DNA from: a virus
Length of the DNA: 32,530 nt
Direction: 5' to 3' (one strand)
IMG/VR virus record: IMGVR_UViG_3300020281_000085
Span: 1 to 32,530 of that record
In this document: positions 1 through 31,649 of the stretch, one piece after another
Layout: the number at the start of each line of letters is the position of its first letter
Numbering within the stretch: the first letter of the stretch is position 1
Made by a program: the position numbers and the translations under genes
The notes under the pieces: model-generated
The model's input: only the letters and a program-made list of their open reading frames with translations
The model's database searches: none
Told to the model about the DNA's origin: nothing

Positions 1-368
1 AGTTGTAATCTACCTAATAAATCACGGGCTGTAGATGCCTTGTTTGCCAGTATAGCAATATTAACATTATCATTAAATATTGCATAATGTAGAAGGTATG
101 ATACAACCGTTGTCGATTTACCAGTCTGCCGAGGCATCTTGCATATATTGAAACGGTTCTCATGGAAATTTTTAATTAATTTTTTCTGGAAAGGATATTG
201 TCTAAAAGGAACTAAACCCTCATCCAGTGATACAATTTTTATATAGTTGTTCGCAAAGTAGACAGGATCGTCTTTACACTTCAAGAACTCTTGAATGTTC
301 TCTTTCGTGAACTCAATCGGTGTATTTGCTTTTTTTAGATTAGGATTACCAAGATAAACTTCACTCAT
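1..368 (-). CDS. gp17: Large terminase subunit gp17, N-terminal part (cut by window edge)
   Basis: Packaging ATPase/nuclease that pumps DNA into the prohead at the portal. Reading from the ATG at 368 to the window edge gives 122 residues. The conserved ATPase start is visible: a Q-motif-like stretch FRQYPFQKKLI (about residues 55-65), then a Walker A loop PRQTGKST (about 79-86), followed by a segment ending AILANKAS that lines up with T4 gp17 (SRQLGKTT, then GILAHKGS). The C-terminal nuclease domain lies beyond position 1. Walker A falls near residue 80, compared with about 160 in T4 gp17, so the N-terminal extension is short. The start codon follows the TGA of the upstream 68-aa gene by one base, so translation is probably coupled. 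An ATG three bases further upstream in another frame stops immediately. Family assignment is secure. Confidence 0.95.
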   Translation of the reverse strand, partial: MSEVYLGNPNLKKANTPIEFTKENIQEFLKCKDDPVYFANNYIKIVSLDEGLVPFRQYPFQKKLIKNFHENRFNICKMPRQTGKSTTVVSYLLHYAIFNDNVNIAILANKASTARDLLGRLQ

Positions 369-369
369 A

Positions 370-576
370 TCATACTGTTTTTACATTTTTATTAGTTTTT
401 TTCTTTGCTAGTGGTATACCTGTTTTGAATTTAAAAAGTTCTTTGGCTCTGTTTTTTATAAAATTATCAATGACGAATGGAGTATTCTTTGGATAATTAG
501 ATTTACCAAACTTAGTAAATTGTTTTGTGGAATAAACAGGATCTGACTCCTCTTGAAATTGTTTAAAAGTTTTCAT
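370..576 (-). CDS. Small basic protein with capsid-targeting-like N-terminus (68 aa)
   Basis: A lysine-rich 68-residue protein of unknown function. I use the ATG at 576, which overlaps the TGA of the 916-aa gene (TGATG) and has AAGGAG 12 bases upstream. The in-frame ATG at 588 sits directly on that AAGGAG, leaving no spacing. The N-terminus MKTFKQFQEE resembles the capsid-targeting peptide of T4 internal proteins II/III (MKTYQEFIAE), which the prohead protease gp21 removes after a [LI]xE-type site. The C-terminus (IPLAKKKT, then VKTV) matches the end of the 66-aa protein at 9163-9363 (LPIAKKKT, then VKSV), so the two are probably paralogues. From this I infer a small head-internal, DNA-associated protein. 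An unrelated packaging accessory role is also possible given its place just before gp17. Confidence 0.75.
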   Translation of the reverse strand: MKTFKQFQEESDPVYSTKQFTKFGKSNYPKNTPFVIDNFIKNRAKELFKFKTGIPLAKKKTNKNVKTV

Positions 577-3326
577 CAGCAATTCCATCTCCTTAGTGCC
601 TTATTAATTCTTGAATCTGGATCCCTTGCAGTTTTTGCAGATGTAAGTCTCTTCTTCATACCTTTCATTCTTCTACAGAACGATAATCTTCTTTTTGCGT
701 CTTTAGAACCTTTCTTTAATTTTTTAGGATCTTTTGTGACTGCAGTTTTTAATTTAGAACCAGGATTCTCACGACGATACGCCTTGACTGCCTTTTTACT
801 TAAACCATCAGTCTTATCTTTACGATTGACCTTTTGCCAATCCTCACCCAACTCTGTTCTCCAATCATATGATGACATTAAATTAGGTTTATCTTCTTTT
901 TTATTTTTTTTATTTTTATCTATATTTTTTTGAATTTTTTTAATTTTATTCTTTTGTGTTTGAGTTAAAGGTTCCGTTTTTGCTGGTGGTAAATCATCAG
1001 TAAATGTTCCTGTTGGTCTTTTCTCAACAAATTTTTTCTTAATTGGTGTTGACGATCCACCAATATATTTGTCAAAATCAATCTTTTTTTGAAGATTTAC
1101 TTTTACAGGTGTTGTACCTTTATTTGGTTTATTTGCTAATTGATTTGCTTTTTTAGTTTGATTAATAATTGATTTAGTTTGAATATTTTGTGAGGTTATC
1201 TTATCAACAGGTTTATACTTAGTTACACCTGAATCAATCATTGATTTAGTTACTTTTGGTTTTTTCTTAGTAAATTGTTTTATAATTTGTTTTGCTACTT
1301 TTTTAACAATTTTCTTTTTGAATCCCTCATCAATACTTGCTTTTTCTTTTAATGGTTTTGCTTTGATTATATCAACAGTTTCAATTTCTGTAAACTTGAT
1401 ATCATCGACATTCCAATCTTGAATTACTAATTCACTTTCAATTGCAGTATTTTCTTCTACCTTTTTCTTCTCAGGTAATCCTTTATGCTTTGTAGATGCA
1501 AAATCTTTTACATCTTTAGTTTTCATACTAACAGCAGCTTTTGCAACCTCTGGTGTAGATGCCTCACCAGTTCTTTTCGCATTGAGAACTGCACCCATAA
1601 ACCTTTGCTGTTTTTTAGATAATGCCTTTTCAGAAACAACATCATCACCTAAATCAACAGAAGCTGCAAGATCTTTATAAGGAGGTTCCTTATATTTTTT
1701 CTCTGTATTCTTTGGTAGTTTTTGACCTTTGATATAATTACCAAAGTTACCGTGAACTAGTTTCTCATCTAAAGAAGAAGTTTCGACCTCTAACTCCTCC
1801 TTCTTAGTCTTTTTTACGCAGTTTGGATACCTCTTACCAAACATTGTCTTCATACCTTTCTTCTCATAACCTTTCCAACACTTTTCATCAAGTTCTTGTC
1901 TCCAATTGCTTTTATTCTCTTTTATCTCTTCATCCTCATGAGGAATTGTATTACCATCAGCATCTTTCTTATGATGCTCAACTATTTCATCTCTCCAACG
2001 ATGATGTGGTGTCTTGTAAACCTTTGCTTCGTATTCAACTTCTTCTTTACGACTGTTACCCCAGTTTGCAGCACCTACTTTACGACATTTAACTAATGCA
2101 CCTGATGCATATGCACTTGGCCAAACTGAATATCTTGACTTAACTTTATGGTAACAGGCATCTTTTGTACCACTACCTTTTCCTTTCTTATCCTTAACTT
2201 CTGTTAAATCTATTTCTGCTTCTTCTGTGTCTTCTAGAAGTGTATCTCCTACAACTACACCGTTCTCTGCAAACCAACCACGATTTACTTCAACTGCATA
2301 TCTTATTTTACCATCAGGATATACAGGAATCGAACTCATCGGGTCTAATTCTTTGATACTTTCAATTACACCTTCTTCGTTTATAAATGCAATATCAAGA
2401 GGTATGAAAGTATTCTTCATATGGAAAGAATGACGATCAGTATTCTCAAATACAAAGAGCATACCACGATCTTTTTCCAAACTTTCACGGAACATTAGAC
2501 CTAATCTAAATTCTCCATCGTTTTGTGGAACTTCAAGTTGAAGTGGTAATGAGATAAATTCTTCCTTCATTTTCTTTTTCTTTTTAGGTTTGTCAGTTGA
2601 AACATATGTTGGTTTTGCAGCACCAGATTTAGACTGCTGATTTGGATCTGCTTTTTTCTTTCTTCTTGCTGCAGATAATCTCTCTTTCTTACTCATACTT
2701 GCTCTCTTTGCAGAAGAAACACATTTAGGTGTTCCCTCACCTGGTTCATCACTGGCACAGGTTCCACCTGTAACCACGTTGACCCATCCACCTTTACCGT
2801 CCTTAGATTTAGAACCCTTAAACCATTTATGAAGTGAACCTTCTTTCATAGTCTTAGGTTTCTTACCTTCTTTTTTCATATTAATAGCAATCGCTGCTTG
2901 TTGAGCAGGACTTACTGCTTCATTCATTTTTTTAGTCTTTTTCTTCATTGAATTAATAAACTTTCGATAAATGGCAGCTTCAGCGGTTTTACCCATCACT
3001 CTCGCTCTTTGCTCCATAGCAATTGCTGCTTGAATTTTATGAGCGTGTGATCGACTTGATTTCCTAATTTTTGCCACACTCGCTTTCGCTGTTGCGACAT
3101 CCTTAAAACCAAGTCCATGAATAGTTCCTTTAGGATCTTCATCAGTATACAAATCAGAATGTTTTTTAGATTTTGCAGGTTGTCCTGCTTTTCTTGGGAT
3201 ACGAGGATTCGATCCCTCTGAGACTAAAAATCCATCTTCACGAACTTTATATCCATCAGGGATAGGTTTACACTTTTTATCAGTGTTACAATAGTATTGT
3301 CCTTTTTTACAGGAAGTCTTTCCCAT
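576..3326 (-). CDS. Lysine-rich multidomain mosaic protein with DUF192 and DUF3008 (916 aa)
   Basis: A string of short cassettes of the kind that occur separately in small marine T4-like phage proteins. In order: a Cys motif (C6, C13, C19; CKKGQYYCNTDKKCKP); a basic helical segment, about 51-135; a WVNVVTGGTC...KC cassette, about 163-225; a DUF192-type domain, about 270-362, with GLMFRESL, GMLFVF, FHMKNTFIPLDIAFI and NRGWFAENGV; a cassette KDACYHKVKSRYSVWPSAYA, about 388-420; a WRQELDEKCWKGYEKKGMKT cassette, about 475-505; a DUF3008-type segment, about 569-618 (SKKQQRFMGAV...DFASTKHKGLP); a lysine-rich linker, about 650-815; and a Lys/Arg-rich C-terminal cassette, about 839-916, ending RRWNC. 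Lysine is about 18% by my count. No signal peptide or membrane segment is seen. It lies between the small and large terminase genes, so a role in the head or with packaged DNA is an inference. The molecular function is unknown. The start is 7 bases after the gp16 stop. Confidence 0.85.
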   Translation of the reverse strand: MGKTSCKKGQYYCNTDKKCKPIPDGYKVREDGFLVSEGSNPRIPRKAGQPAKSKKHSDLYTDEDPKGTIHGLGFKDVATAKASVAKIRKSSRSHAHKIQAAIAMEQRARVMGKTAEAAIYRKFINSMKKKTKKMNEAVSPAQQAAIAINMKKEGKKPKTMKEGSLHKWFKGSKSKDGKGGWVNVVTGGTCASDEPGEGTPKCVSSAKRASMSKKERLSAARRKKKADPNQQSKSGAAKPTYVSTDKPKKKKKMKEEFISLPLQLEVPQNDGEFRLGLMFRESLEKDRGMLFVFENTDRHSFHMKNTFIPLDIAFINEEGVIESIKELDPMSSIPVYPDGKIRYAVEVNRGWFAENGVVVGDTLLEDTEEAEIDLTEVKDKKGKGSGTKDACYHKVKSRYSVWPSAYASGALVKCRKVGAANWGNSRKEEVEYEAKVYKTPHHRWRDEIVEHHKKDADGNTIPHEDEEIKENKSNWRQELDEKCWKGYEKKGMKTMFGKRYPNCVKKTKKEELEVETSSLDEKLVHGNFGNYIKGQKLPKNTEKKYKEPPYKDLAASVDLGDDVVSEKALSKKQQRFMGAVLNAKRTGEASTPEVAKAAVSMKTKDVKDFASTKHKGLPEKKKVEENTAIESELVIQDWNVDDIKFTEIETVDIIKAKPLKEKASIDEGFKKKIVKKVAKQIIKQFTKKKPKVTKSMIDSGVTKYKPVDKITSQNIQTKSIINQTKKANQLANKPNKGTTPVKVNLQKKIDFDKYIGGSSTPIKKKFVEKRPTGTFTDDLPPAKTEPLTQTQKNKIKKIQKNIDKNKKNKKEDKPNLMSSYDWRTELGEDWQKVNRKDKTDGLSKKAVKAYRRENPGSKLKTAVTKDPKKLKKGSKDAKRRLSFCRRMKGMKKRLTSAKTARDPDSRINKALRRWNC
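589..594 (-). promoter_or_regulatory. Shine-Dalgarno AAGGAG deciding the start of the 68-aa gene
   Basis: AAGGAG on the minus strand ends 12 bases before the ATG at 576 and abuts the alternative ATG at 588 with no spacer. A ribosome bound here would therefore start at 576. The site lies inside the last codons of the 916-aa gene. Confidence 0.6.
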
Positions 3327-3333
3327 CTACAGA

Positions 3334-3765
3334 CTATTCAGAGCTATTATTATTTAGTATTCCATCTTTTAACATTTTTGAAAGTTCACTTGTTGAACCT
3401 ACAAATAAAGCATTATTGGTAACGTTGCTCTGTGGTTTTGCTTTATCTTCATCTATTTCTTTTATTTTTTTATGCAAATCTGCTAATTTATCAGTCGTAT
3501 CTGCAACAGACTTGATTAATTGACCTGCAACTTCATATGCTCTTGGACTTGCAGTTTCTCCTGCAACTTCCATAATACCATTTATTGCCTCTTGACCCTT
3601 CTCGATTAAAGAATAGAGATTACCACGAGTATAATCATAATCCTTACTAACATCATCAGTGAGTTTCTGTATGTTACTTTTTGCTTTATCATTTTTAGTA
3701 ATCGCATTTACTTCAACAGAATCTGTATTGAAAGTATCATTTAATGAGTCATAAGAATCTTTCAT
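3334..3765 (-). CDS. gp16: Small terminase subunit gp16 (143 aa)
   Basis: DNA-recognition and regulatory partner of the large terminase. The central helical region (about residues 45-105, SPRAYEVAGQLIKSVADTTD followed by LHKKI) corresponds to the T4 gp16 coiled-coil core ([20 protein letters not shown], LHKDM). The downstream NNALFVGSTSEL (117-128) matches the NATVFMGSPTEL stretch of T4 gp16. Length is close to T4 gp16 (164 aa), with a shorter N-terminus. The start ATG overlaps the gp15 stop (TAATG), and AGAGGAG lies 10 bases upstream. In T4 this gene adjoins gene 17. Here a 2.75-kb gene and a small gene come between. Confidence 0.9.
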   Translation of the reverse strand: MKDSYDSLNDTFNTDSVEVNAITKNDKAKSNIQKLTDDVSKDYDYTRGNLYSLIEKGQEAINGIMEVAGETASPRAYEVAGQLIKSVADTTDKLADLHKKIKEIDEDKAKPQSNVTNNALFVGSTSELSKMLKDGILNNNSSE

Positions 3766-4616
3766 TAGATATCTACTCCTCTATTAGGTGCAAAATCTTT
3801 ACCATCACCAAAGAATGAACTTGTTTCAGTAAATCCAAAATCATCACCTGGTTCAATAAATGGTGTATCATTAGTATCTATAACATTATCTTCATTATAA
3901 TCCTTTGTAGGTTTAGGAACCACAGTATATCTTTGTTCTCTCTTTGCTGTTCTTGTATTTGTATCTGAGTAGTAATCGACCTGAACTTTGCGAATAAGTC
4001 CCTCTGGAGTTTTTGCAATATGACCAAACATAAAGGTCTTTGCTGTGAATGAGAGTGTGTATATTAATGCTCTTCTTGTTGAAAAATCCCCTTCATAATC
4101 ATCTTGCTGACTAATTGAGTTTAATATCATAGGTATATCTCTTTTTTCACCTATTGATTTGACCAAATCAATTGACATTGTAAATGCTGGTTGAAAGAAA
4201 GGTAATATCTGTTCTAAAATTTGTAGTCCATCATCTTGCAATTTAACTAAGATATTTAATTCAAAACTCAAATTGTAAGGTACAGGCATAAAAACCTTTT
4301 TCATTTTACCACCGTCACTACTATCTGCTGCCTTAAATGTTTGAGTTATACCTGCCTTACGAGTTGCATCATATGAAATATTTGTAATCTCAAAAGACAT
4401 TCTTGGTAATGTAATTTGAGTTGCTTTATTTAATTCTGCTTGTTGTGTAATTCTTGCTAAAAACTTTTGTCTAGGACCATATGCTACGGGAACTTTTATA
4501 TCAGATATATCATTACCTGCTTGGTCTTGATGTCTCACATGAATATCATTAAACAATGTACCAAATGCGATAACTGTCTTTCTAATTATTTCGTGATAAA
4601 AGTAATTTCCTAACAT
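3765..4616 (-). CDS. gp15: Tail sheath stabiliser/terminator gp15 (283 aa)
   Basis: Forms the ring that caps the tail tube and sheath and joins the tail to the neck. The length is close to T4 gp15 (272 aa). Shared landmarks run in the same order: an N-terminal MLGNYFYHEIIRKTVIAFGT (T4 MFGYFYNSSFRRYATLMGD), LPRMSFEI (T4 LPRINLHL), a QILEQILPFFQPAF stretch around 133-146 (T4 QIVEQILPYFQPHF), STRRALIYTLSF (about 179-190) and EGLIRKVQVDYYSD (about 205-218, T4 EGLIRTTYTDFH). The C-terminal 60 residues are acidic and less conserved. The gene overlaps gp14 upstream and gp16 downstream by one base each (TAATG). Confidence 0.93.
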   Translation of the reverse strand: MLGNYFYHEIIRKTVIAFGTLFNDIHVRHQDQAGNDISDIKVPVAYGPRQKFLARITQQAELNKATQITLPRMSFEITNISYDATRKAGITQTFKAADSSDGGKMKKVFMPVPYNLSFELNILVKLQDDGLQILEQILPFFQPAFTMSIDLVKSIGEKRDIPMILNSISQQDDYEGDFSTRRALIYTLSFTAKTFMFGHIAKTPEGLIRKVQVDYYSDTNTRTAKREQRYTVVPKPTKDYNEDNVIDTNDTPFIEPGDDFGFTETSSFFGDGKDFAPNRGVDI

Positions 4617-8962: not shown

Positions 8963-9166
8963 CTATGACGTTATCTTTAATGATAGTTCTTTCAGCATGA
9001 ATTTAAGTTCTTCAATTTCTTTTTTCATATTTTCCATCTCTGTTTTTCTATCAGAATTTCTAATTTTATCAGACATATAATTTTTATAAGAATTAGTATC
9101 ACAATTTATGATAGCACCAGTTCTTTCATCACGAAATAGATTTTTATGTCCTTCTACTGGTATCAT
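8963..9166 (-). CDS. Small protein with C-terminal coiled coil (67 aa)
   Basis: Begins MIPVEGHKNLFRDERTGAII, followed by NCDTNSYKNYM. The second half (about 36-65) is a Lys/Glu/Leu/Met heptad-like helix (TEMENMKKEIEELKFMLKEL). Proteins with this N-terminus and a helical tail recur among small hypothetical proteins near structural genes in T4-like marine phages. No function is known to me. The start overlaps the stop of the 66-aa gene (ATGA). The stop lies just upstream of the late promoter, so it ends the gp8 to 66/67-aa transcription segment unless there is read-through. Confidence 0.75.
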   Translation of the reverse strand: MIPVEGHKNLFRDERTGAIINCDTNSYKNYMSDKIRNSDRKTEMENMKKEIEELKFMLKELSLKITS

Positions 9167-9363
9167 ACTGATTTTACTTTAGTTTTTTTCTTAGCAATAG
9201 GAAGTGGAAGATTAAATCCAGTTCCCTTTCTAAACTTTTCATTACTAGATTTAATTTTACCTAAATCTCTAACACTATTTGTAATAGCATCATCTATTGT
9301 AACAGGTTTTTCATCATAATATTTTGGAGTTACTTGCTCCATAAATTGTTGAAATGTTTTCAT
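9163..9363 (-). CDS. Small basic protein with capsid-targeting-like N-terminus (66 aa)
   Basis: N-terminus MKTFQQFMEQ closely resembles the T4 internal-protein capsid-targeting peptide MKTYQEFIAE. The C-terminus (LPLPIAKKKTKVKSV) resembles that of the 68-aa protein at 370-576, while the middle differs (TIDDAITNSVRDLGKIK here). The start overlaps the stop of the 2503-aa gene (TAATG), so translation is coupled to a virion protein. From these features I infer a protein that is packaged into the prohead and trimmed by the gp21-type protease. A plain accessory of the neighbouring baseplate genes is the alternative. No catalytic motif is seen. Confidence 0.75.
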   Translation of the reverse strand: MKTFQQFMEQVTPKYYDEKPVTIDDAITNSVRDLGKIKSSNEKFRKGTGFNLPLPIAKKKTKVKSV

Positions 9364-18515: not shown

Positions 18516-21500
18516 TCAAAGTCCAAATACTCTTATAGATCCTGATGATCTAAGACCCTTCAGAGAACTTGTAGTATAATGCTTACGTTGAATAGTTGGG
18601 AAGCTTGTCAATCCACTATTGACAGTTAATCCAGTAACACCTATTGAAACAGGTGAAGAATCTCTTGAAGCATTATATAATCTACCCCAACTTAATCGAC
18701 CCAATGATGTAGTCAATCCTACAGTTGTCACATTGTAGAATCCAGTGGTGGTTATACCACTTAATGCTGAACCATTTTTTACATTACAAATAATTTCACC
18801 ATTTTCATTACCTTGAGTATTTCTAGCATGTACAATGTAAATATTATCTAAGAAGGTAGTTCCTATACCAACAATAGATGAGTTATGAGTATCTACAGAT
18901 ATAACTCCATTTCCGACTCTTGTATCAGATATTAGTATTGGATATCCAACTTCCAAATCATTTGTGTTTGTTCCTGCTTTTTCTGCCCTAAAGAAGAACT
19001 TAATTGCAGTCTGTCCACCATTAGTAGTTGGTGCAATACCTGTAATGATTCCAGAAAAACCTTGAAAATTACTAATAGATGTAATTTTTTCCGTTTGGAA
19101 TGAAGGTAATTCTATAATAACTTCTGGAGGATTTGATTGGTCATAACCAAAACCAACAGCGGTAAGTGATGTACCACTGACAGAACCGTTTGTAATAGTA
19201 GTTGTAGCAAATGCTGTTGATCCAATACCAGTTGTGGTTCCAGAACCAATTGGTGGACGTATTGAAATACTTGGTGCTGATAAGTATCCAGATCCTACAT
19301 TTGTAACATCAATTGAGATGGTTCCAGCAGCAGAAACGATAGCAGTTGCTGATGCCCCCACGTTTATTGTACCAGAAGTTAAAAGTGCATCAACTTGATT
19401 TATTGTTAGATCATATTTAATTGCTGATAAAGATTCTACATGTCTTGTTGCCTCAATATGATTACCTTTCTCGTAGAAGAAAGAATTTGCGTTGTCAACA
19501 AATATTCCACCATCTGGACCAATTCCAGATGAAGATGTAACATTACCAATAATTTTAGCAGTTGGATATATTTGTGGTTCAATTGATCCTCTTGCTTTAC
19601 TTATAATTTCATTACCTATTCTAATATCAGTTTTTTGTTTTGTCCATCTTATTGGTTTTTTATTTGTTTCATCTACCCCTTTTCCTGAATAGATGTCAGT
19701 TTCAAGTGTATTTGCATTTACTATTTGCTTTATCACTCTTTCATTTGTTTGAGTAGTTGTTAAACCAACAGTGTTTGTCAATGGTGACTTCATTACACGA
19801 AGGTCATCACCAATTTTGACACTTTCCTGAATATCTACAATATCTACGTCTACACCTTCTTCACCTTTATAGAAGAAAATATCTACTTTATCATTATCAT
19901 TAGCACCAGGAAAAGTTTCTCCAGTTGGAGCTTCTTTAAATATAAAGGTTGTTCCACCCTCGTTAAAGAAATATGATTCACCTGGTTTTTGTAATACACC
20001 ATTGACAAAGATAAGTAAAACAGCATCTAAGTCTATTTCATCAGAATCTACAATACTAGGATCTTTCTGGAAACTAAGCAATTGTCCGTTAAAATACAAT
20101 GGGAATCTTGTTCTTGATCCATCTTGTAAATTTTTAATACTATCAATAAAATCAATTTCACCAAATTGCCAAGAAGAAAATTTATCATTAAATATTTCAA
20201 TAACTTCTAACTCAAATTCATTTATTGGTTTTGATAGATGTGATGCAGTTACTAAACCAATTGGTTTAAATTTATCTCCTACCTTAAATGAATGTCCATC
20301 TCTTGCAACCTTAAATTTTTTAATCTCAAATAATGTAGATCCTATTCCAACTGTTGTTGCTGCTGCACTCACTTCAACATCTAATAATAAATTAGAACCA
20401 GTATCAGTTGTTGCACCTTCTGCACGTCTTGACACACCTATTATAGGTAAATTGTCATAGTTTGGTTCGGGAATGATTATTTCAGGATTTACATATCCTG
20501 AACCTGGATTATCAATTGTAAATGCAAGTGTACCACCAGCACCAACTATTGCAGAAATTTCTGCACCTGTTCCACCACCACCACCAGCACCAACGTTTAG
20601 TAGTATTGTGTCTGTGGTCACTGAAATAATTGCTGTTTGTATTCCAGAAACAGGATCTGAATTAGGGAAACTCGTTTTTGATACTGCTCTTGGATATGGA
20701 TGATTGGAGAAGAAATTATCTTTTGAGCACTTGAATACTAATCCACCATTGACAATACCAACAGTATCGCTTGTTGATAATCCATGATTAGGAATAGTGA
20801 GTAAAAGTTCTCCTGTATGTGATGTATATACTGCGTCAGTTGCTGTAAACTGTTGACCTGCAAAACTACCTTTTCTTATTGAACCAATACCAGCACTTAC
20901 AAATCTATGAACGTACGCTTGATCTGTAACACCTATTGCAACTGAACCACCTCTATATCCCGAACCAAATGTTAGATCCTCAAAGAATTCGTAAGCAACA
21001 CCTCCACCAACATAGGTATGAACAATCGTGCTAGGACCTGCTTGCACCTCAAATGTTCTATCAGAGACTATCCCAACAACAAATAATGGTCGTTCATGAT
21101 CTTGGAAGAATGTTGTAGTGACTCCACTATATCCAACACAACTAAATTCTAAATTCTTCAATTTGACTGTATTTGGTCTCTCTAATCCAAAACCATGAAC
21201 TTCGTTAGTTGTAACTGTTATGATTCCCGTTGTATTGCTGTAAATTGCAGTCTGAATACCAAGATTAAATCCAGAAGATGTTCCAATACCCACTATACTT
21301 GTTAAACCACCAGCAGCATTTTTAAATGCCTTTACCTTTGCACCTTGTAATGGAGCATAACCTAATCCAGCAGTTGATCCGAGAGATACAATTAAACCTC
21401 CTCTTGGAACTTGATTTTGATTGATATCACCCTCTGAAATAATAAATTGTCCATTTTCAGATGTAATACCTGTAAATTGTATGGTTGAAATTCCTGCTGT

Positions 21501-24500
21501 CGTATCTGCAATAATTTCATAATTATTACCAACGTTGTTTGTAGTTAAAGGTGTTTGGAAAACTCCGTTTATGAATACCACTCCATTTCCAATTCCTATA
21601 CCTGAAGATGTATTTGCTCCACCAACAGTCAAAGAGTAAGTTTTTCCAATACCTGTGAATGAATCAGATATATCATCAAACAACATATTTGTTGTGTAAT
21701 TACTTCTTAAAAAGGTTCTACCGCTAAAATCTGCTTTAACAAAAGGTAAATTACTAAGATTTCTTCTTGATCTGGTATTTCCTTTTGGAGGTTCAGTGAA
21801 AATTACCTTACTATCTACAATATTAAATGTTCCTCTGTGAACTTTAACAAGTGCATTATCGGCATGAGTTGAAGCTGATATTCCTAATTGACCTCTTTCA
21901 ACTCTTACAGTAGGTAAAGTTGCAATTCCAAGTGCTACGTCAGTTGCATCATTTATCAATCCATTTGATATACTTGAGAGTCCAACTTCAGTTATTGTCA
22001 TATACTCTTCATCTATCTTCAAAACATCTGATGGTTGAATTGAACTTATTCCACTTAATACAAATTGAGTTTGAGCTATACCGATATTTCCATCTAATCT
22101 ATGTGTAATTCTTGTGAACGTAATTGGTTGTTGTACAACACCATCTAAACCAATCATTGTTTTCGTCAATTGCTTGGCCATAGAAATTTTATGGGAATTA
22201 CCTGAACCAGTTCCAGTAAAAGTAACTACATTGCCAGAATTAATATACTCAGGTCTTGTAACTAATTGGAAACTATCTTTGTTTATTACTTTTGCAAATA
22301 CTGTTGATGGAAGAATTGTTGTAACAATACCTGCCATATTCGTCGTAGATCCGATTGATACAGCGGTAGCTGATGTTCCAACAAAAGTTGTTTCTGGAGA
22401 GTAAACTAATTCCTCTTTATTACTGAAGAAATGATCTGGGATATTGAATATACCAGTTGTTTTATCTAAAATACCTGTGTTTGTAGGATCAAAAGTTTTT
22501 GTGTATATTGGAACACCCTCATGAGTTAAATTAAATATTTTTTTATCAGATCTTTTACCATCTTTTCCATCATAAGCTGTTAAAAATAATTGTTGTGTAA
22601 CTGGTCCATAATTTAAGTTAGGAGGAGTATTGTTGAAATCATTTTCAGTGTAAAAAATTTGATTGAAAGATTGAATTTTGATTAAAGAATTAAATTCAGA
22701 ATCTGGATAGAATCTTAAATTTATATCATTGCCAGATATCTCTCCACCAAATGTACCAATACCAGATGTAGATCCTACTGATACAAATGGATATTGCACA
22801 GTAAGGACATCATCATCATCTCTGATTGTTACTAACTGATGAATTGCGGAAGTGTTTCCACATGAAACTCTTACTAACGATTTTACAGTGCTGTCTAAAT
22901 TTTTACTAATTGTATTGTATGTTATGGCACTTCCAGTTCCAGTAATAAAACCTGACTCTAATCTTACACTTCTTTCAGCACCAGGAGGTTGACCTAATAC
23001 TGAATATCTGTAAGTACCAATTCCAGTAGTTGTAGTTCCTAATCCTACAATATTTGCTCTAATATCTAAATTGTTAGCACTGTTATTTTCACATTGCAAT
23101 TTAATAAGATTGTTTTCAAATTTTGCTGTGATAATACCCACTGCACTATTACTTAATCCTTTCTTAGTGTCAAAATATGCTTGAGACATTGTAGGTTTGA
23201 CACCATCAAAATCAAGAATTATTTCATTATAATTAATTTCTTTTGTAGAATTATCTTGCACAAAAATATTTGCATATAATCCATTAAAATCTGTCTTAGG
23301 AAATTCTACAATAGTTGACGTAGTTGCAGTAGATGCGGTGCTTACAACACCTGTTAAATCAATATTTCCGATTGATTCTGTGCCTATACCTACTAAGTCA
23401 GTATTGAAGTCAATCTTTAATATTTTTATATCATGATCTTTTGTAAATTTCTCTGTTGGATCAAATATTAAATTTTTCACTCCAGTTTCAAGAATTTCTG
23501 TAGAGAAATCACCTAATTTTAATGTAGTAAAATCAGTTGATTTTTCAAGTAAAAATGCATCTAACTCGTTTGTTAAAACAACTAATTCTGAGAATTGAAT
23601 ATCAAATGTATCGGGATCGACAATTTGTATTAAATAATTTCCATAATCTTCTGATAGAGTCTCTATCAATGTATCATTTGCTTTATTACCTGTATTAGAA
23701 AAATTATTACTAATATCATCATGAATAAGCACTCTATTTGATTTACACCTTGTAAAATCTGCTAATTTTTTAGTTGATAATTCTAAAAATTTAGATTTAT
23801 TAGTTCTAGAATCAAAATCTCTTGCATAGTCAAAATTATTAATTGCATCCACTCTTTGTGAATCATTCAATTCAAGAATGTTTAATACATCAAGAGTTAT
23901 TGTGTCATTTGTCTTTGCAGTTGTTCCAACACCTACTTTTACCTGTGATTCAATAGAAGTATCTGAAAAATTTTTTAATCCTGCAGGATGAATTAATCTA
24001 TTCAATGGATTGACAAATTTTTCCCACTCGACTGTACTCTTTACTGTGTATGATAAATTTTGATAATAATCATTATCAGGTATGACTTGATAATCTGTAT
24101 TTAATTTTCCTATATCATCTAACCACCCATACTCTTTCCTATTAGAAAAATCAACTTTGAATTTAGCTCTATTTCCATTTATTTTGCTAACAGTTGCTGT
24201 AATACCGCTAACTTTACCTGTAATTCGATCATTTATCTTAAGATTGAATTTACCATCTACTTTTATATAATCATCTCTTATTTCAACAATCCTTAAATCA
24301 GTTAAATTATTACCTATTGATAATAGTTCATTTAACTCAAATTCACCTCTAGTTTGTACAGGTCTTATGTCGGGATATTTATTTTTATTAATTATGGTGG
24401 CATAACCTGATTGAAAAGTTTTTGCAATACCAGGATTAGTTGTCAACCCTGATAAATTAAATTTAAGAATTGCTTCTACACCTGATATGTAATCCTCAAC

Positions 24501-27500
24501 CTTAAAGAATTTAAAGTTATAATTTTCTGAATTAAATCCATCTCCTGTTGATGTGACTGTGGAAATTCCCCCTTGTGTATTACCTATTCCAAGATCACCG
24601 AGTAATTGTATTCCCTCAACAAATATTTCATCGCCTATTGCAAAGGGTTGAGGATCAACAAAACCATTAAATGGTGTTTCAAGAAAACAAGTTACCATTC
24701 CAGAATTACTTGATATTATTGAATTGATGCCTACACCATTTGAATTATTAATTGCAATAATTTGATGATTTATAGAATCTAATCCTGATACAGGTGCTAA
24801 TACTTTAACACTTGATACAGTTTGACTTGGGGCGATTGCAACTAATGATGAGTTGTCAACAATAGTATTTGTTACTGGATTAAAAATAAGCAAATCAGGT
24901 GCATTAATATAGTCAATACCACCACTGATAATGTCAACAGATTTTACTGTATCAAGGTCATCAATTTCAAGAACGGGTGCAACTTGAGCTTCTGGACTTA
25001 ATGTTTTATCAGAAGAATATTCATAACCAATGTCTATAATTCTAACATCGTTAATTCTACCTATTGTTTTTGATTCTGGGACAATGTTTGCATTGGTACC
25101 CTCTACACTTATTACTGACTTGAATTTAGGTAATTTTTTATAATTAAATCCTGATGATAATATCTTAAAGTTTTTAATTTTTCCTTTAACATTGGGGGAT
25201 TTTGTTGAGTATTCTAATTTCTCACAATCAGTGCTTAAATAAGTTGTAAGTTCTGGTACTTTAGGTGATATATTAAATTTATTAGTTGTAACTCCTGATA
25301 TATTATATACACCTGAATATACACTATCTACAAAAACAATTTCATTAGCACGTATTACATCAGTATCTGATGTGCTTATATAACCACCTTTCGTTACTCC
25401 ATAATATAAAGTTTGTGGTGTTGATGATGAAAAATTAACTGTTAAGGCAGCACCGACATTACCAGGAGTTCCTAAAGAAGATAAATTGAAGTTTGATGTG
25501 TCTTGAGAACTAAGATATTCATTAGTTAAACTATTATCGTAAAATACTTTAAATTGATATCCAGATAATGATGAATCTGATAAATTAAAACTTAACTTAG
25601 AATTTTTATATGATGTAATTTTAGGATTAATCAAAGATACTGATTGATTTGCACCACCAGTATTAGCAGTTATTGATACTATTTTTGGTGGAGTTGTATA
25701 TAAATCATTTGAAGTTTCTGCTAATTGAAAATATCTATTATTAATTCTATTAACAAAATATGATCCAACACTTAAACCTGTTGCAGATCCTTGATAAAAT
25801 ACTTTATCACCTGTTACTAATCCATGATTATCAACATCAATACGATTTGCTTCAACATCAGACGCATTAAACGTAATTGAATTCAAAAGTAATTTTTGAT
25901 ATTCTGAATTGAATTTAACTGCAATCGGTGTAGTTGTTCCAATACCAACTGCAAGGTTTGGTACAACATTCATTTTTACTATATCACCATTCTGTAATCC
26001 GTGAGTTGTAGTGTCTGCTGCAGCAACATTTGTTTCAACTGTAGTTATTACTTTGTCTATATCTCCAGTAATTTGATTAAATTTAGAACTTAAATTATAC
26101 AATCCTGATCCAATTCCTGTTTGTGTTCCATTGGAGTGGAAAAATAACCCTTCACTTGTACTTCCGATACCAACTTTGGTTGTTAACAATCCAACAAAAT
26201 TTTTACCTTTATCAATAATGTAAAGATCCATGGATTGACCACTTAGTGGTATTTGAAAAGTTTGCACCTCTCCATTATCAGAAACTCCAAATTTAGCAGA
26301 TCCAGTTTTTTTATTTAATGATACTTTTTGACCAGTTTTAAAAGGATGATTTGGAATATGTATAGTCCTTGTTGGGATTGATAAATTTTCTTTGACATTA
26401 CCTATCCAATAATCAACACTAATACCACCACCAGCTGTTGTTCCTACACCAACTGACTGTTTACCATTAAAATATACAATATCATTTACCTTTGAATCAA
26501 ATTTTTTAGTTTTAACTGGTATATTAATTGAAGTATTAAGAAAGTCAATATGAGATCCAAGTGTATGAGCAATACCAGTATTTCTCAAAGCACGTATTGT
26601 TCTTCGTTCATTAAATAATTCCAAAACTTTTAGAACTTCAGTATCTGTTGTATTTCCTGATCCAACTCTTATTGATCCACCAACAGATATTGTATTTGGA
26701 ATTTTAGTTACAACAATATCTACAATATTAGAACTTGTAGATGCGGTCATTGACCGTGATAAACCGACTCTATCAGTTTTAACTCCAATATTAAAAGATC
26801 CTGCCAAATTAACAATTGTAGTGCTAAGTCCTGATATTAATGCTGAATTTAGATTATCAAATTCCATGAATGGTTGATATGTCGCAATTACTTCGTTATT
26901 ATTCTTCCATGTAAAAATTGCATCCTCAAAACGTTCCAGTGAAGTATCTAATCTACTAATATCAACACCAACTATTTCACTAACTTCCGCACTAAAACCA
27001 GATCCACTTGTTTCTTGACTGTCAAAATTTGTTACATCCCCTATTCTATATCCTGTTCCTCCATCTAAAATAACAAGGTTATCAATTCCCCCCTGAGTAA
27101 CCGATAGCACCTGTGTTGATTGCCTTAGTGCCTCATTAGATTCAATAATAAAATCATTATCACCAAATTTTTCATCTACATTATGAGGAAATGTATTTCT
27201 TAATAAATTAGAATTATTAAAATCAAAATCATGATTCATTGATAAATTATCTTCAATTAATGGAGATCTAAAACTTTTACCTATGAAATATGGATATTTT
27301 GATTCTATTTGGTTTGTGGTAGCTCCTAACTCTACAGTGGCAAAATAAGCGTATACTCCGTTAGGAAATTCAGGAGTTTTTCCAAATCTACCATTATGAA
27401 TATCTAAATCACCAGACTCATTAAAATAATAATCATCGATAAAGAAACCTGGTGCAAATCCACTTGGTCTATTAACAAGGTTAGTATCATTTAAAATGTA

Positions 27501-30500
27501 AGAGGATTCAATTATTTTGAGATCAGAATTTATATTATCTGGATCAGAGTAACCAAAAGGTCCATATATTGGATTTCCATCATATGCCCATCCAATAATT
27601 GGTGAATGTTTTGTTATTTTATCAAATTCACCATTATCTTTGATATCAAAAGAATTTTCAAGTGAATTTGCGATATTTTGAGAATATCCAAATACACCAA
27701 AAGTTAAAAAATCTTCTCTTGGAGTAAGACTAAAATCACCAAATCTTGTACCATTTACAGTTAATGATCTTACTCTTCCATTTAAATTAGCATTCAACCC
27801 TCTTGGTTTTACTCTTGCTGTTGTTGAAAAACTACTATAACCTATACCAGAATTTATTACAATCGTATCAATAATTTTACCATTTTCAGTAACTGGTCTA
27901 ACTATTGCACCAGTTCCGAAATTATCAGATATTTCTATATCAGGTAAAGAATTATAATTTTTTCCTTTATTAACGACAACTACTTCTTCAATTCTCCCAT
28001 CAACCACAATCGGTTTTACTGCAGCACTTGATCCATTGAGAATATTAATTTTAGGTTTAATTTGATGATTTAGTATTTTTGATCCATAATCACTTCCCTT
28101 ATCATAAAGATATGTGTCGATAATTTCACCTGTAATAATTGGTGTTAAATTAATATTACCAGTGACAGTTGAAGCATAAGAAACGTTTATATCAATTGTT
28201 ATATCTGGATACTTAAATACATGATATCCTGCACCAACAGATGTCAAATTAACAAATTTATTTCGGTCATAATCTAAGGTTGATGTTCCACCAACACCAG
28301 CATTCGCTAGTTTAAAGGAATCGTCATCAATTTTTTTAATAATATATGATGTGGATGTGCTTAATCCCCCTATTACAGTATCAGATGAATAATTAACTAT
28401 TTCTCCACTTTCAAATCCATGATTTACAAAATTAATCGTATCATATGATGTTGATATACCAGTTGGATCAACTCTTAATTTTCGATAAGTGTATCCTTCA
28501 CCAGGATTAATAACCTTCACTGAAAATAAAGTATTGACATTTTCAGTTCTAAATTTATGAGTACCACCGAATACTGTATCTGTTGCTAATCCAACAGTAT
28601 TAACTCCGACTGCATTATTTTCACTAAAAAGTGCGTCAGATGCTGTATTAAATATTCTAACTGTTGATGAATTAATTACTCTAACAAAATATGGATCACC
28701 ATCTGATAATGCACCTGTAATAGCTTGTGAACCATCAAATGCATTTCCAGTGGTAATTGGTTCGTTACCGTTGCTGTTATAGTAAACTAGTTGCCCGTTT
28801 TCAAGATTATGTTCTTTTTTAAATGTAATAGTTTCTTCAGTAGTGTCTATACCACCTCCAAAAAATATATCTCTACTATCAAATTCAATCGTTCTAAATC
28901 TATTACCCACGACTGGTTGTAATTTACATCCTGATCCATTACCTCCAGATAATGAAATACTATCAACTGCTTCAATATCAAAATTTTGAGGATCTACAAG
29001 GATCTCTTTTACAGTTCCTTTTATTACTGGTTCAACCAAAGCTGGATTTCCAGTTAAATTTTCAACTTCTATTACGGGAGGGTTTAATACATCATAACCA
29101 TCACCTGTATTAAATACATCAATCTTTTCAAGAGGTCCGTAGTAAATATTATCATCGGAAATTGGTGATCTTATCTGAACACCATCTCTTAATATACCTA
29201 TATCATTAACTGGTGTTTCATGTTTAGAAGATACAAATAAATTTTGAGATAAAGGAATTCTTCTTAAAATTTTATCAACATATAGTTTTTTATTACCTTG
29301 TGTCTGTAAAATAAAATTGTGATCTATAGATGTAGTAGTTCCTATCCCAATTTGTGCTGTGCTTGCACCACCGACTTGACTTAATGATTCATATAGAGCA
29401 AGTTTTGTTATATTTTGATTCTGAACAATTATAGGATCAACATAATATGTTCTTCCTGATTCCAAACCAGATATAACTTCCGTTTCAGGACTATAAACTA
29501 CTGCATCACCCTGAATAAATTGTAAATTTTCACCTACTTCTAATGGAAAATCAATAAAACTATATGTTTCAGTTAAAGAATTATACCCCTCAAAACTTAA
29601 AGAAGATGTTGCAGCAGAAACTTTTTTAGATGTAATATTATAACTGGGTAGTGAATTAGATGCTACATATCCATCAATATCTGAATCTGTATATACATTT
29701 AAAACATCAGATATTAATGTATCGTTTCCAGTTTCTATTTCAACACCAGTGCTTGATGCTGTTTCAATTACTCTACGAATATCATAAGATTCATTTGGAT
29801 CTTGAACGAACCCAGCTACGCCCGATGCAGTAAACTGACCAAGACTTGGGGTAATTTCACTTACTATACCAACTTTTTCAACAACTTGTTCGTTTCTTCT
29901 TAAAATTTGAAATCTATCACCTGTCTTCAGTTTAGATTTGTCAATATCAGTTTTTAATGTAAAAGTTGATCCTGAAATATCGACTTGAAATCTTGAACTT
30001 GTATTATATTTCCAAGAATTTGCAAATTTTTCCTTATATGAGCTATTATCATTCTGTATTTTTTCACCTACATTTTTTACAAATATCAACTCTCCTTCAT
30101 TTACTAAATTTATGTCACTGACAGATTCAAATTCTGATAATACTCCAGTGATTCTTAAATCAACCCTTTTTGATAAATCACCATTTTCATATCCAAATAT
30201 TGTTTCATTATCTCTAATATCATGAGCTGTTCCAATACCAATATTAATTCCAGTGCAACCAAAGAATTGATTTATTGATTTTGATGTATAATTTATTAAA
30301 TTTTGACCACTTATAAGAGTACCAGTGGTTCCAAATCCGACTGTAGAGTCAACTGATATAATAGAAGATCCTGCAGGAGTATCAGTTAAAACTTTTGTTT
30401 TACCTGGTATTGTAAATACACCCTCTATTAAATCACGATCACTAAAACCTATGAATAAAGATATTTTGTAATAACTTTTACCTTCTCTTTGAAGTATTTC

Positions 30501-31649
30501 AACTTCAGATATTGATGCATTTGTGTTAAGATCATTTGATTTATATATTGTTTGTCCTACTAAATTTTGAGGGTTACTATTAGGTGTAATTAGATCAGTA
30601 ATGATAACCTCTCTTCTTATGAACTCAGCATCTGAAGGTTTTACTAAATTACCCTCTAAATCTAAAACTTTAGATTCTACACCGTATAATACCTTAAATA
30701 ATATTCGTATTGATTCTTCAATACCTTTAGATTGATAAAATGATCGAGAAAATTTGACAAAATTTCCTACGTCTAAGTTTGATGCAAATTCATTATTATC
30801 AAATCCTGGTAAAAATGTCTTTTTTAATTTTTTAAAAAATTCTTGTAAAAATAAAACTGATAAGTTTGTAACTGTCGCTCCTGATTCATGATCAGTAGCA
30901 TCTGTATCTTCAAATATTAATTTTTCACGATTAACTTCAAGAAGTGATGATGATACTCCAACATTATATCCTGTGACTCCACTAAAACCTCTAACACATT
31001 CAGTAAAGAAAAATCTTTCATGTGTAAATGTATATTGACCCACCACTGGGTTCAAGGTTGTAACAGGTTCTTGTGGATGAGTTGCAGTGATAATTTTATC
31101 AACTTCTACACTTTGGAAACCGATATTAGTAACTCTTGTATTATTTGTAATTAAAATAGTATCATCTGGATCCTGAACTGAAGATAATGTTACAATGTCA
31201 TTTACAGCAATTTTAGTCGTGTTTATTCCAGCTATGGTTGTTGTAAATCTTACTACATTAACACCACTAGTTGTGACAGCCTCAGTTTTAGTAGCATCTT
31301 TTCCCTCATAAGTAATAATTTCATTACCTATTTTAATTAATCCATATTCATCAGGAAATCCTTTCGTACTAAGTACTTCTATTGTCTTATCAGATGCTTT
31401 TACTTGAGAGGGACTTAAAAAATGTACAGGTAGAATTGTCTCACCATGAATTACTTCTGGAACTAAATTATCTGATTTTAAATATTGATCAAAATTAGAA
31501 ATTAAATCAACAGGACCGCCTTGAAATTCTTGTGATAAGTAATATTGTTTAAAAAATTCAGTTGCGTTAGGAAAATCAGCCGTGATAAATTCTGGTAACT
31601 GATTTTCAATAATCGTGTTAACTTTTATTCTTTTGTCAATTTGTGACAT
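18516..31649 (-). CDS. Giant baseplate/tail structural protein with YHYH domain, in the gp7 position (4377 aa)
   Basis: One uninterrupted 13.1-kb frame. Residues 1-360 (IENQLPEFITADFPNATEFF, LQEFFKKLKKTFLPGF, FYQSKGIEESIRILFKVLYG) resemble the N-terminal region of large T4-like wedge-associated proteins, and the gene lies between gp6 and gp8 where T4 has gene 7 (1032 aa). A YHYH-family domain is at about 1345-1460 (HSPIIGWAYDGNPIYGPFGY, SGFAPGFFIDDYYF, DIHNGRFGKTPEFPNGVYAY). At least ten GxGYxxxPxxxI repeats, a dozen or more [VI]GIG[TS]T motifs, and INGVxQxP modules (about 3165, 3350 and 3890) fill the rest. C-terminus GSIRVFGL. A strong AGAGGA lies 8 bases before the ATG, within the gp6 end. 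The wedge role is inferred from position. The modular tail could bear the host-contacting parts. Confidence 0.88.
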   Translation of the reverse strand: MSQIDKRIKVNTIIENQLPEFITADFPNATEFFKQYYLSQEFQGGPVDLISNFDQYLKSDNLVPEVIHGETILPVHFLSPSQVKASDKTIEVLSTKGFPDEYGLIKIGNEIITYEGKDATKTEAVTTSGVNVVRFTTTIAGINTTKIAVNDIVTLSSVQDPDDTILITNNTRVTNIGFQSVEVDKIITATHPQEPVTTLNPVVGQYTFTHERFFFTECVRGFSGVTGYNVGVSSSLLEVNREKLIFEDTDATDHESGATVTNLSVLFLQEFFKKLKKTFLPGFDNNEFASNLDVGNFVKFSRSFYQSKGIEESIRILFKVLYGVESKVLDLEGNLVKPSDAEFIRREVIITDLITPNSNPQNLVGQTIYKSNDLNTNASISEVEILQREGKSYYKISLFIGFSDRDLIEGVFTIPGKTKVLTDTPAGSSIISVDSTVGFGTTGTLISGQNLINYTSKSINQFFGCTGINIGIGTAHDIRDNETIFGYENGDLSKRVDLRITGVLSEFESVSDINLVNEGELIFVKNVGEKIQNDNSSYKEKFANSWKYNTSSRFQVDISGSTFTLKTDIDKSKLKTGDRFQILRRNEQVVEKVGIVSEITPSLGQFTASGVAGFVQDPNESYDIRRVIETASSTGVEIETGNDTLISDVLNVYTDSDIDGYVASNSLPSYNITSKKVSAATSSLSFEGYNSLTETYSFIDFPLEVGENLQFIQGDAVVYSPETEVISGLESGRTYYVDPIIVQNQNITKLALYESLSQVGGASTAQIGIGTTTSIDHNFILQTQGNKKLYVDKILRRIPLSQNLFVSSKHETPVNDIGILRDGVQIRSPISDDNIYYGPLEKIDVFNTGDGYDVLNPPVIEVENLTGNPALVEPVIKGTVKEILVDPQNFDIEAVDSISLSGGNGSGCKLQPVVGNRFRTIEFDSRDIFFGGGIDTTEETITFKKEHNLENGQLVYYNSNGNEPITTGNAFDGSQAITGALSDGDPYFVRVINSSTVRIFNTASDALFSENNAVGVNTVGLATDTVFGGTHKFRTENVNTLFSVKVINPGEGYTYRKLRVDPTGISTSYDTINFVNHGFESGEIVNYSSDTVIGGLSTSTSYIIKKIDDDSFKLANAGVGGTSTLDYDRNKFVNLTSVGAGYHVFKYPDITIDINVSYASTVTGNINLTPIITGEIIDTYLYDKGSDYGSKILNHQIKPKINILNGSSAAVKPIVVDGRIEEVVVVNKGKNYNSLPDIEISDNFGTGAIVRPVTENGKIIDTIVINSGIGYSSFSTTARVKPRGLNANLNGRVRSLTVNGTRFGDFSLTPREDFLTFGVFGYSQNIANSLENSFDIKDNGEFDKITKHSPIIGWAYDGNPIYGPFGYSDPDNINSDLKIIESSYILNDTNLVNRPSGFAPGFFIDDYYFNESGDLDIHNGRFGKTPEFPNGVYAYFATVELGATTNQIESKYPYFIGKSFRSPLIEDNLSMNHDFDFNNSNLLRNTFPHNVDEKFGDNDFIIESNEALRQSTQVLSVTQGGIDNLVILDGGTGYRIGDVTNFDSQETSGSGFSAEVSEIVGVDISRLDTSLERFEDAIFTWKNNNEVIATYQPFMEFDNLNSALISGLSTTIVNLAGSFNIGVKTDRVGLSRSMTASTSSNIVDIVVTKIPNTISVGGSIRVGSGNTTDTEVLKVLELFNERRTIRALRNTGIAHTLGSHIDFLNTSINIPVKTKKFDSKVNDIVYFNGKQSVGVGTTAGGGISVDYWIGNVKENLSIPTRTIHIPNHPFKTGQKVSLNKKTGSAKFGVSDNGEVQTFQIPLSGQSMDLYIIDKGKNFVGLLTTKVGIGSTSEGLFFHSNGTQTGIGSGLYNLSSKFNQITGDIDKVITTVETNVAAADTTTHGLQNGDIVKMNVVPNLAVGIGTTTPIAVKFNSEYQKLLLNSITFNASDVEANRIDVDNHGLVTGDKVFYQGSATGLSVGSYFVNRINNRYFQLAETSNDLYTTPPKIVSITANTGGANQSVSLINPKITSYKNSKLSFNLSDSSLSGYQFKVFYDNSLTNEYLSSQDTSNFNLSSLGTPGNVGAALTVNFSSSTPQTLYYGVTKGGYISTSDTDVIRANEIVFVDSVYSGVYNISGVTTNKFNISPKVPELTTYLSTDCEKLEYSTKSPNVKGKIKNFKILSSGFNYKKLPKFKSVISVEGTNANIVPESKTIGRINDVRIIDIGYEYSSDKTLSPEAQVAPVLEIDDLDTVKSVDIISGGIDYINAPDLLIFNPVTNTIVDNSSLVAIAPSQTVSSVKVLAPVSGLDSINHQIIAINNSNGVGINSIISSNSGMVTCFLETPFNGFVDPQPFAIGDEIFVEGIQLLGDLGIGNTQGGISTVTSTGDGFNSENYNFKFFKVEDYISGVEAILKFNLSGLTTNPGIAKTFQSGYATIINKNKYPDIRPVQTRGEFELNELLSIGNNLTDLRIVEIRDDYIKVDGKFNLKINDRITGKVSGITATVSKINGNRAKFKVDFSNRKEYGWLDDIGKLNTDYQVIPDNDYYQNLSYTVKSTVEWEKFVNPLNRLIHPAGLKNFSDTSIESQVKVGVGTTAKTNDTITLDVLNILELNDSQRVDAINNFDYARDFDSRTNKSKFLELSTKKLADFTRCKSNRVLIHDDISNNFSNTGNKANDTLIETLSEDYGNYLIQIVDPDTFDIQFSELVVLTNELDAFLLEKSTDFTTLKLGDFSTEILETGVKNLIFDPTEKFTKDHDIKILKIDFNTDLVGIGTESIGNIDLTGVVSTASTATTSTIVEFPKTDFNGLYANIFVQDNSTKEINYNEIILDFDGVKPTMSQAYFDTKKGLSNSAVGIITAKFENNLIKLQCENNSANNLDIRANIVGLGTTTTGIGTYRYSVLGQPPGAERSVRLESGFITGTGSAITYNTISKNLDSTVKSLVRVSCGNTSAIHQLVTIRDDDDVLTVQYPFVSVGSTSGIGTFGGEISGNDINLRFYPDSEFNSLIKIQSFNQIFYTENDFNNTPPNLNYGPVTQQLFLTAYDGKDGKRSDKKIFNLTHEGVPIYTKTFDPTNTGILDKTTGIFNIPDHFFSNKEELVYSPETTFVGTSATAVSIGSTTNMAGIVTTILPSTVFAKVINKDSFQLVTRPEYINSGNVVTFTGTGSGNSHKISMAKQLTKTMIGLDGVVQQPITFTRITHRLDGNIGIAQTQFVLSGISSIQPSDVLKIDEEYMTITEVGLSSISNGLINDATDVALGIATLPTVRVERGQLGISASTHADNALVKVHRGTFNIVDSKVIFTEPPKGNTRSRRNLSNLPFVKADFSGRTFLRSNYTTNMLFDDISDSFTGIGKTYSLTVGGANTSSGIGIGNGVVFINGVFQTPLTTNNVGNNYEIIADTTAGISTIQFTGITSENGQFIISEGDINQNQVPRGGLIVSLGSTAGLGYAPLQGAKVKAFKNAAGGLTSIVGIGTSSGFNLGIQTAIYSNTTGIITVTTNEVHGFGLERPNTVKLKNLEFSCVGYSGVTTTFFQDHERPLFVVGIVSDRTFEVQAGPSTIVHTYVGGGVAYEFFEDLTFGSGYRGGSVAIGVTDQAYVHRFVSAGIGSIRKGSFAGQQFTATDAVYTSHTGELLLTIPNHGLSTSDTVGIVNGGLVFKCSKDNFFSNHPYPRAVSKTSFPNSDPVSGIQTAIISVTTDTILLNVGAGGGGGTGAEISAIVGAGGTLAFTIDNPGSGYVNPEIIIPEPNYDNLPIIGVSRRAEGATTDTGSNLLLDVEVSAAATTVGIGSTLFEIKKFKVARDGHSFKVGDKFKPIGLVTASHLSKPINEFELEVIEIFNDKFSSWQFGEIDFIDSIKNLQDGSRTRFPLYFNGQLLSFQKDPSIVDSDEIDLDAVLLIFVNGVLQKPGESYFFNEGGTTFIFKEAPTGETFPGANDNDKVDIFFYKGEEGVDVDIVDIQESVKIGDDLRVMKSPLTNTVGLTTTQTNERVIKQIVNANTLETDIYSGKGVDETNKKPIRWTKQKTDIRIGNEIISKARGSIEPQIYPTAKIIGNVTSSSGIGPDGGIFVDNANSFFYEKGNHIEATRHVESLSAIKYDLTINQVDALLTSGTINVGASATAIVSAAGTISIDVTNVGSGYLSAPSISIRPPIGSGTTTGIGSTAFATTTITNGSVSGTSLTAVGFGYDQSNPPEVIIELPSFQTEKITSISNFQGFSGIITGIAPTTNGGQTAIKFFFRAEKAGTNTNDLEVGYPILISDTRVGNGVISVDTHNSSIVGIGTTFLDNIYIVHARNTQGNENGEIICNVKNGSALSGITTTGFYNVTTVGLTTSLGRLSWGRLYNASRDSSPVSIGVTGLTVNSGLTSFPTIQRKHYTTSSLKGLRSSGSIRVFGL

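Follow-up and report, generated by a model that had tools for sequence, protein, structure and literature searches.

The analysed stretch of DNA, hereafter the window, comprises 32,530 nt of a virus record from IMG/VR (IMGVR_UViG_3300020281_000085). On its minus strand we found, in this order, genes for a gp13-like adaptor, gp14, gp15, gp16, a 916-aa protein, a 68-aa ORF and gp17 (Table 1). The nearest isolate is Prochlorococcus phage P-SSM2, as measured with gp15, and judging from its sequence the window phage is a P-SSM2-like T4-type marine phage. A single 4377-aa ORF lies where P-SSM2 has its giant gp7 baseplate wedge gene. A sequence-only reading of the window had claimed a small and basic protein next to the large terminase gene that starts with the peptide MKTFKQFQEE, and all of this is indeed the case: the minus-strand ORF 576..370 starts with these ten residues and encodes 68 aa plus stop (MKTFKQFQEESDPVYSTKQFTKFGKSNYPKNTPFVIDNFIKNRAKELFKFKTGIPLAKKKTNKNVKTV) with 16 K+R vs 5 D+E, and it is located between gp16/the 916-aa gene and gp17. 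An alternative in-frame ATG at 588, 12 nt upstream of 576, would add the residues MELL. We favour the ATG at 576 because it overlaps the stop codon of the 916-aa gene (TGATG), as in coupled translation, because an AAGGAG is found 12 nt before 576 whereas it leaves no spacing to ATG 588, and because what the relatives have in common is the tag.

Table 1. Coordinates of the features discussed; positions without a locus prefix refer to the window
Feature	Position	Strand	Remarks
gp17 terminase large subunit, N-terminal part	1..368	minus	phrog_5989, E 1e-37; cut by contig end
68-aa tagged protein (putative cargo), CDS incl. stop	370..576	minus	homologues: free in L001 and L002, within a polyprotein in L003-L006
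Capsid-targeting-like tag, residues 1-10	547..576	minus	MKTFKQFQEE; predicted cut after E9 (F-Q-E/E) or E10
Putative cargo body of the 68-aa protein	370..546	minus	basic, Lys-rich tail; a single confidently predicted helix at residues 38-52
916-aa Lys-rich modular protein, candidate gp21-processed polyprotein	576..3326	minus	phrog_12753 module, DUF192, CYHKVKSRYS module, CWKGYEKKG module, DUF3008, DUF6321
gp16 terminase small subunit	3334..3765	minus	phrog_445, E 4e-53
gp15 tail sheath stabilizer	3765..4616	minus	76.7% identical to P-SSM2
Second tagged small protein, 66 aa	9163..9363	minus	MKTFQQFMEQ...; C-terminal end PLPIAKKKT..VKSV resembles the first
Common C-terminal end of both small proteins	370-420 and 9163-9210		PL(A/PIA)KKKT...VK(T/S)V
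4377-aa ORF	18516-31649		
SAM lyase family (PF23780)	L021:14694-15203; L150:3837-5081; L211:1441-2151; L046; L090; L235		
S-CREM2 gp12	L150:7704-10313		annotated Cas9
Four MKTFKQF-tagged ORFs on one contig	L079:6505-9422		

The window contains a second tagged ORF (9363..9163), which the sequence-only reading had not reported. The C-terminal ends of the two small proteins are alike (PLPIAKKKTKVKSV vs IPLAKKKTNKNVKTV) and their middles differ; a similar C-terminal end is present in L010 (NLPLAKKKNNKKVQTA). The motif MK[TSN][FY]xxFx(1-2)E thus occurs twice in the window, compared to no occurrence in 300 simulated windows with the same trinucleotide make-up. Neither small protein has a family match in PHROGs, Pfam or PADLOC, a tblastn search of both against 50,697 phage records gave no match even at E 1, so that none of the isolate records searched contains this body, and the AlphaFold models are poor (pLDDT 66 and 63).

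In the T4 record, the internal proteins IPII and IPIII start with MKTYQEFIAE, the capsid-targeting sequence (CTS). T4 genetics assigned targeting to residues 4 and 7 and processing to residues 8 and 10 (PMC9026906). The 68-aa protein has the aromatic F4 and F7 as in the T4 CTS; at the processing positions it has Q8, E9 and E10 vs a hydrophobic residue 8 and Glu 10 in T4, with F7-Q8-E9 as an alternative. On sequence grounds, the agreement with T4 is poorer at the processing positions than at the targeting ones. Given Q at residue 8 and E at residue 10, cutting might take place at FQE/E (the slash marks the cut) or might be inefficient. The paralogue has E9-Q10, so that FME/Q is the sole fitting cut. 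The protease gp21 is encoded in P-SSM2 and on contig L154 (77% identity to P-SSM2 gp21), whose gp17 N-terminus is 98% identical to that of the window and which carries its own tagged ORF next to it. L154 gp23 contains SFLSE/Q at the position matching SFLTE/A of T4 gp23, the established cut site there, and therefore the tag ends in a version of the site at which the capsid protein itself is cut. A search of the 32.5-kb window fragment for the Peptidase_S77 family gave no match, but the controls were silent as well, so that this search is uninformative on gp21. As a separate observation, several tagged or virion proteins (L193, L067 and L152, i.e. S-CREM2 gp160) contain a GPVAGFDP-like stretch. 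It resembles the residues of gp23 that directly follow the cut site, as though it imitated the N-terminus of the mature capsid protein.

We then searched viral contigs with a DNA pattern in which only residues 1-7 (MKTFKQF) were fixed. It occurs in at least 120 stretches, whereas the scrambled heptad MTKFQKF of equal composition was found 11 times, i.e. is at least 11 times rarer. Among the matches listed there are 119 distinct proteins, whose bodies form 73 clusters that show no detectable similarity to each other. Of these 119, 109 (92%) carry Glu at residue 9 or 10 (expected 0.11, p 4e-90); counting one protein per cluster it is 64 of the 73 listed clusters (p 1.5e-49), with E9 in 45% and E10 in 55% of them. 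Residues 9 and 10 are at or adjacent to the position of the T4 gp21 cut. A hydrophobic residue occupies position 8 in 60% of the 73 listed clusters compared to a background of 21%, and in the listed proteins E is not enriched from residue 11 onward, i.e. conservation ends at the predicted cut position. An upstream stop lies at most 30 codons away in 116 of the 119 listed proteins, and 110 have no earlier ATG. For 67 of the 119 listed loci, the short fetched stretch also holds a P-SSM2-type T4-like late gene. A separate tally gave 185 tagged ORFs in 85 clusters, and a six-frame scan of the whole P-SSM2 genome detected exactly four tagged ORFs (PSSM2_114, 115, 194 and 211), all of them annotated gene starts with differing bodies. 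Two statements of the sequence-only reading are supported by these data, namely that the first ten residues have the layout of the T4 CTS and that MKTF-QF-like N-termini occur on several small proteins of marine T4-like phages. In the computational tests the tag behaves as the T4 CTS does. On one contig, L079, four MKTFKQF-tagged ORFs lie close together; their bodies have no Pfam or PHROG match where tested, and one that begins FYRGLSDKYDP... recalls ADP-ribosyltransferases by eye.

A common N-terminus could also have no targeting function and be either a leader that enhances translation or a relic of recombination. Both the TGATG overlap of the start with the upstream stop and the cassette-like exchange between gp16 and gp17 described below would suit this. 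Yet among the matches listed the heptad is written by 52 different 21-mers, and therefore selection acts on the peptide: F4, F7 and E9/E10 are conserved, the codons are not. Together with the presence of all five tagged S-CREM2 proteins in virions, this makes such an explanation highly improbable in our view.

The virion data come from cyanophage S-CREM2, with 52 proteins in its virion proteome (Table 3 of PMC10665884). To its 219 CDS we applied a strict regular expression modelled on the T4, P-SSM2 and window proteins. It picked five, and all five are in the tabulated virion proteome vs 52 of 219 CDS overall (Fisher p 6.5e-4): gp6, a SAM hydrolase (MKDFDSFLEE), gp13 (MKDLHSFLTE), the kinase-like gp14 (VKRFDAFLTE), gp136 (MQTFSMFFSE), which lies in the gp16-gp17 interval like the window ORF, and the cytidylyltransferase gp154 (MKNFSSFLTE). 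With two looser expressions, 6 of 9 and 7 of 9 proteins were in the virion. The S-CREM2 test was not blind, since the virion N-termini had been listed before the strict expression was applied and a narrower P-SSM2 expression picks only gp154. Applied afterwards in identical form to S-SZBM1, for which a shallower proteome exists (30 of 218), the strict expression found two proteins, one of which was seen in virions, the cytidylyltransferase S-SZBM1_140. In addition, T4-GC190, the cluster of the tagged cytidylyltransferase PSSM2_194, was found in purified S-SM1 virions (PMC3037559). In the available portions of their papers, the S-CREM2 and S-SZBM1 authors give no packaging signal for the virion-associated enzymes. 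S-CREM2 gp12, a virion protein that carries the annotation Cas9, has no Pfam match; it shows FASFMAE/A at residues 19-25 and has an N-terminal region in common with the tagged P-SSM2 cytidylyltransferase. It is possibly a misannotated cargo.

Membership in a virion proteome is no proof of an internal location, and the S-CREM2 authors themselves allow for abundant contaminants (PMC10665884). The heptad might hence serve the assembly of other virion parts (tail, baseplate or capsid exterior), with the tagged proteins in the virion but not in the head. The proteomes are silent on location, and the second copy in the window adjoins baseplate/tail genes. Against this, the tag agrees with the T4 CTS in its residues 4 and 7 and has Glu at 9/10 as for gp21, which is active inside proheads, and the types of cargo (SAM lyase, cytidylyltransferase, kinase-like) are enzymatic rather than structural. 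We therefore regard a destination outside the head as unlikely and retain targeting to the prohead as the preferred reading.

When loci were collected by the gp17 N-terminus, with the tag disregarded, the gp16-gp17 interval consisted of the polyprotein gene and variable genes, and 23 of 43 intervals with both ends (the window being one of them) contained a tagged ORF. The density of tagged ORFs is 0.212/kb within these intervals and 0.0105/kb outside, a 20-fold difference (p 8e-11). The bodies in this slot vary: that of the window recurs in L002, and others are a 57-aa body (L154/L156), a 64-aa body (L157), a 228-aa body (L155), a SAM lyase (L211; PF23780, E 2e-17) and a 'GDFNG' body in many loci. 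That the gp16-gp17 region is a hotspot of variation was already known (Millard 2009, as cited in PMC3037559). The CTS itself is already known from T4; in the literature within our scope, which excluded subscription papers and supplements, we did not find that marine T4-like phages use it widely, nor the slot in the terminase interval or the traffic of modules between free and fused forms. In this literature no report was found that connects the MKTF tag with the phage capsid, and among the papers listed the only one to contain both 'capsid targeting sequence' and 'cyanophage' has the second term in its reference list alone.

This traffic is seen with the body of the 68-aa protein itself. Relatives of it were found on only six contigs (L001-L006); in two of them it is tagged and free, and in the other four it lies within a homologue of the 916-aa protein. 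The similarity of the fused forms begins at residue 10 (...GPIKE/EQPVYSTKEF... vs MKTFKQFQE/EQSVYSTKEF), thus free form and module differ by the tag. The same free/fused relation exists for DUF6321, a CWKGY module, a WTNKYKKSIDC module and the SAM lyase. A potential cut motif, [ILVMF]xE, is located exactly at the module junction in 24 of 168 cases (14% vs 2% elsewhere) and at most 2 residues away in 72 of 168 (43% vs 9.6%), which makes it 4 to 7 times as frequent there as in the rest of these proteins, but more than half of the junctions are without it and homologous junctions are not independent. Each of the five profile-defined domains of the 916-aa protein begins next to an [ILVMF]xE (p about 0.003, with distance limits chosen post hoc). 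The bulk excess of this motif in polyproteins (658 vs 463 in shuffled sequences) was dropped as evidence, as it is largely matched by the reversed motif (601). Six internal full-length tags were found in polyproteins, all at module starts; their number is not clearly above that in shuffled sequences and was not counted as an excess either. S-CREM2 gp137, a DUF6321 protein at the gp16-gp17 locus, is listed in the virion table. Processing of the polyprotein by gp21 is plausible but not shown. Pfam and PHROGs detected DUF192, DUF3008, DUF6321 and unnamed modules in the 916-aa protein and no peptidase domain. Besides its DUF192 domain, this protein shows a recurring linker motif, WRxELxE; in 65 polyproteins the pattern WR.[EDG][LFV].E was seen 20 times vs 0.1 expected.

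For an anti-defence role of the cargo there is evidence at the level of the class. Tagged proteins of the SAM lyase family (PF23780) are encoded in P-SSM2, S-CREM2 (in virion), L211, L046 and L090, and a SAM lyase module is part of the polyprotein S-SZBM1_194 (L235), where it follows an internal FITYREFIAE. Destruction of SAM as an escape from restriction is established for the T3 enzyme. For S-CREM2 gp6, an anti-restriction role is proposed by its authors (PMC10665884), and T4 Ip1-Ip3 inhibit GmrSD enzymes (PMC12373910). The suggestion of the sequence-only reading that such proteins can be anti-defence effectors thus gains support at the level of the class only, via the tagged SAM lyases, and nothing is shown for the body of the 68-aa protein. 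If the tag is accepted, this body could still be a structural or DNA-compacting basic head filler, like part of the T4 core, without an effector role in the host. It is small, Lys-rich and poorly structured, and T4 heads hold about 1000 internal-protein molecules (PMC3012670). However, the exchange of unrelated bodies at the same slot suits variable effectors better, and some tagged cargoes are enzymes; a mere filler is accordingly the less probable job for this body, but one to be kept in mind. By inference, the likeliest role of the body is to counter host defence or to serve an early takeover of the host.

Taken together, we consider it quite probable that the product of the 68-aa ORF is an internal (cargo) protein which a T4-like marine phage packages into its head, with the first ten residues as the CTS. 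The tag on dozens of unrelated phage proteins very probably directs them into the head for entry with the DNA. For the 68-aa protein, packaging, cutting and injection are inferred, as there are no virion data for the window phage. F4 and F7 would dock the tag onto the prohead core during assembly; gp21 would then cut after E9 or E10 (FQE/E or QEE/S) and release a basic body of 58-59 residues, which may stay with the packaged DNA and be ejected into the host alongside it. The gene occupies a cargo slot between the terminase genes in which relatives put different tagged bodies, and its 916-aa neighbour probably consists of several such cargo modules in a row. More tentatively, and with somewhat more doubt than confidence, we propose that the whole gp16-gp17 region is a hub of head-packaged effectors, made up of tagged free cargoes, including SAM lyases, and a Lys-rich polyprotein from which gp21 releases several injected proteins within the prohead; modules would pass from the free to the fused state, or back, at the cut sites. 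The T4 internal proteins are the classic example of phage proteins that enter the host together with the DNA and block its restriction. If marine T4-like phages rely on the same kind of tag, the injected cargo of very abundant ocean viruses could be listed from sequence; the SAM lyase, cytidylyltransferase and kinase-like proteins in cyanophage virions would be explained; and a hypervariable region known since 2009 would gain a function, along with dozens of candidate anti-defence proteins.

Several known systems invite comparison. The virion-associated enzymes of cyanophages (S-CREM2 gp6, gp14 and gp154, S-SZBM1_140) have the same kind of N-terminal tag and are present in virions, but belong to known families, whereas the body of the 68-aa protein has no family match. 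The propeptides of SPN3US head proteins are likewise N-terminal and removed by a prohead protease after Glu, yet several exceed 100 residues and their sequence is different (PMC5694885). Polyvalent proteins of phages and plasmids, e.g. P1 DarA/DdrB (Iyer et al. 2017, PMC5512222), resemble the 916-aa protein in being multidomain and proposed to be packaged, cut and delivered; the latter lacks a peptidase domain, would be cut by gp21 at [ILVMF]xE and contains other domains. T4 IPI, IPII and IPIII share with the marine proteins a 10-residue N-terminal tag (M-K-T, an aromatic residue 4, F7 and Glu at the gp21 cut), bodies that are small and unrelated to one another, and variable gene slots. The marine tag differs from that of T4 by F4 instead of Y4 and often by F-x-E (E9) instead of I/L-x-E (E10); the slot lies between gp16 and gp17, the body is unrelated to any T4 internal protein, and the marine phages have many more body types as well as modules fused in polyproteins.
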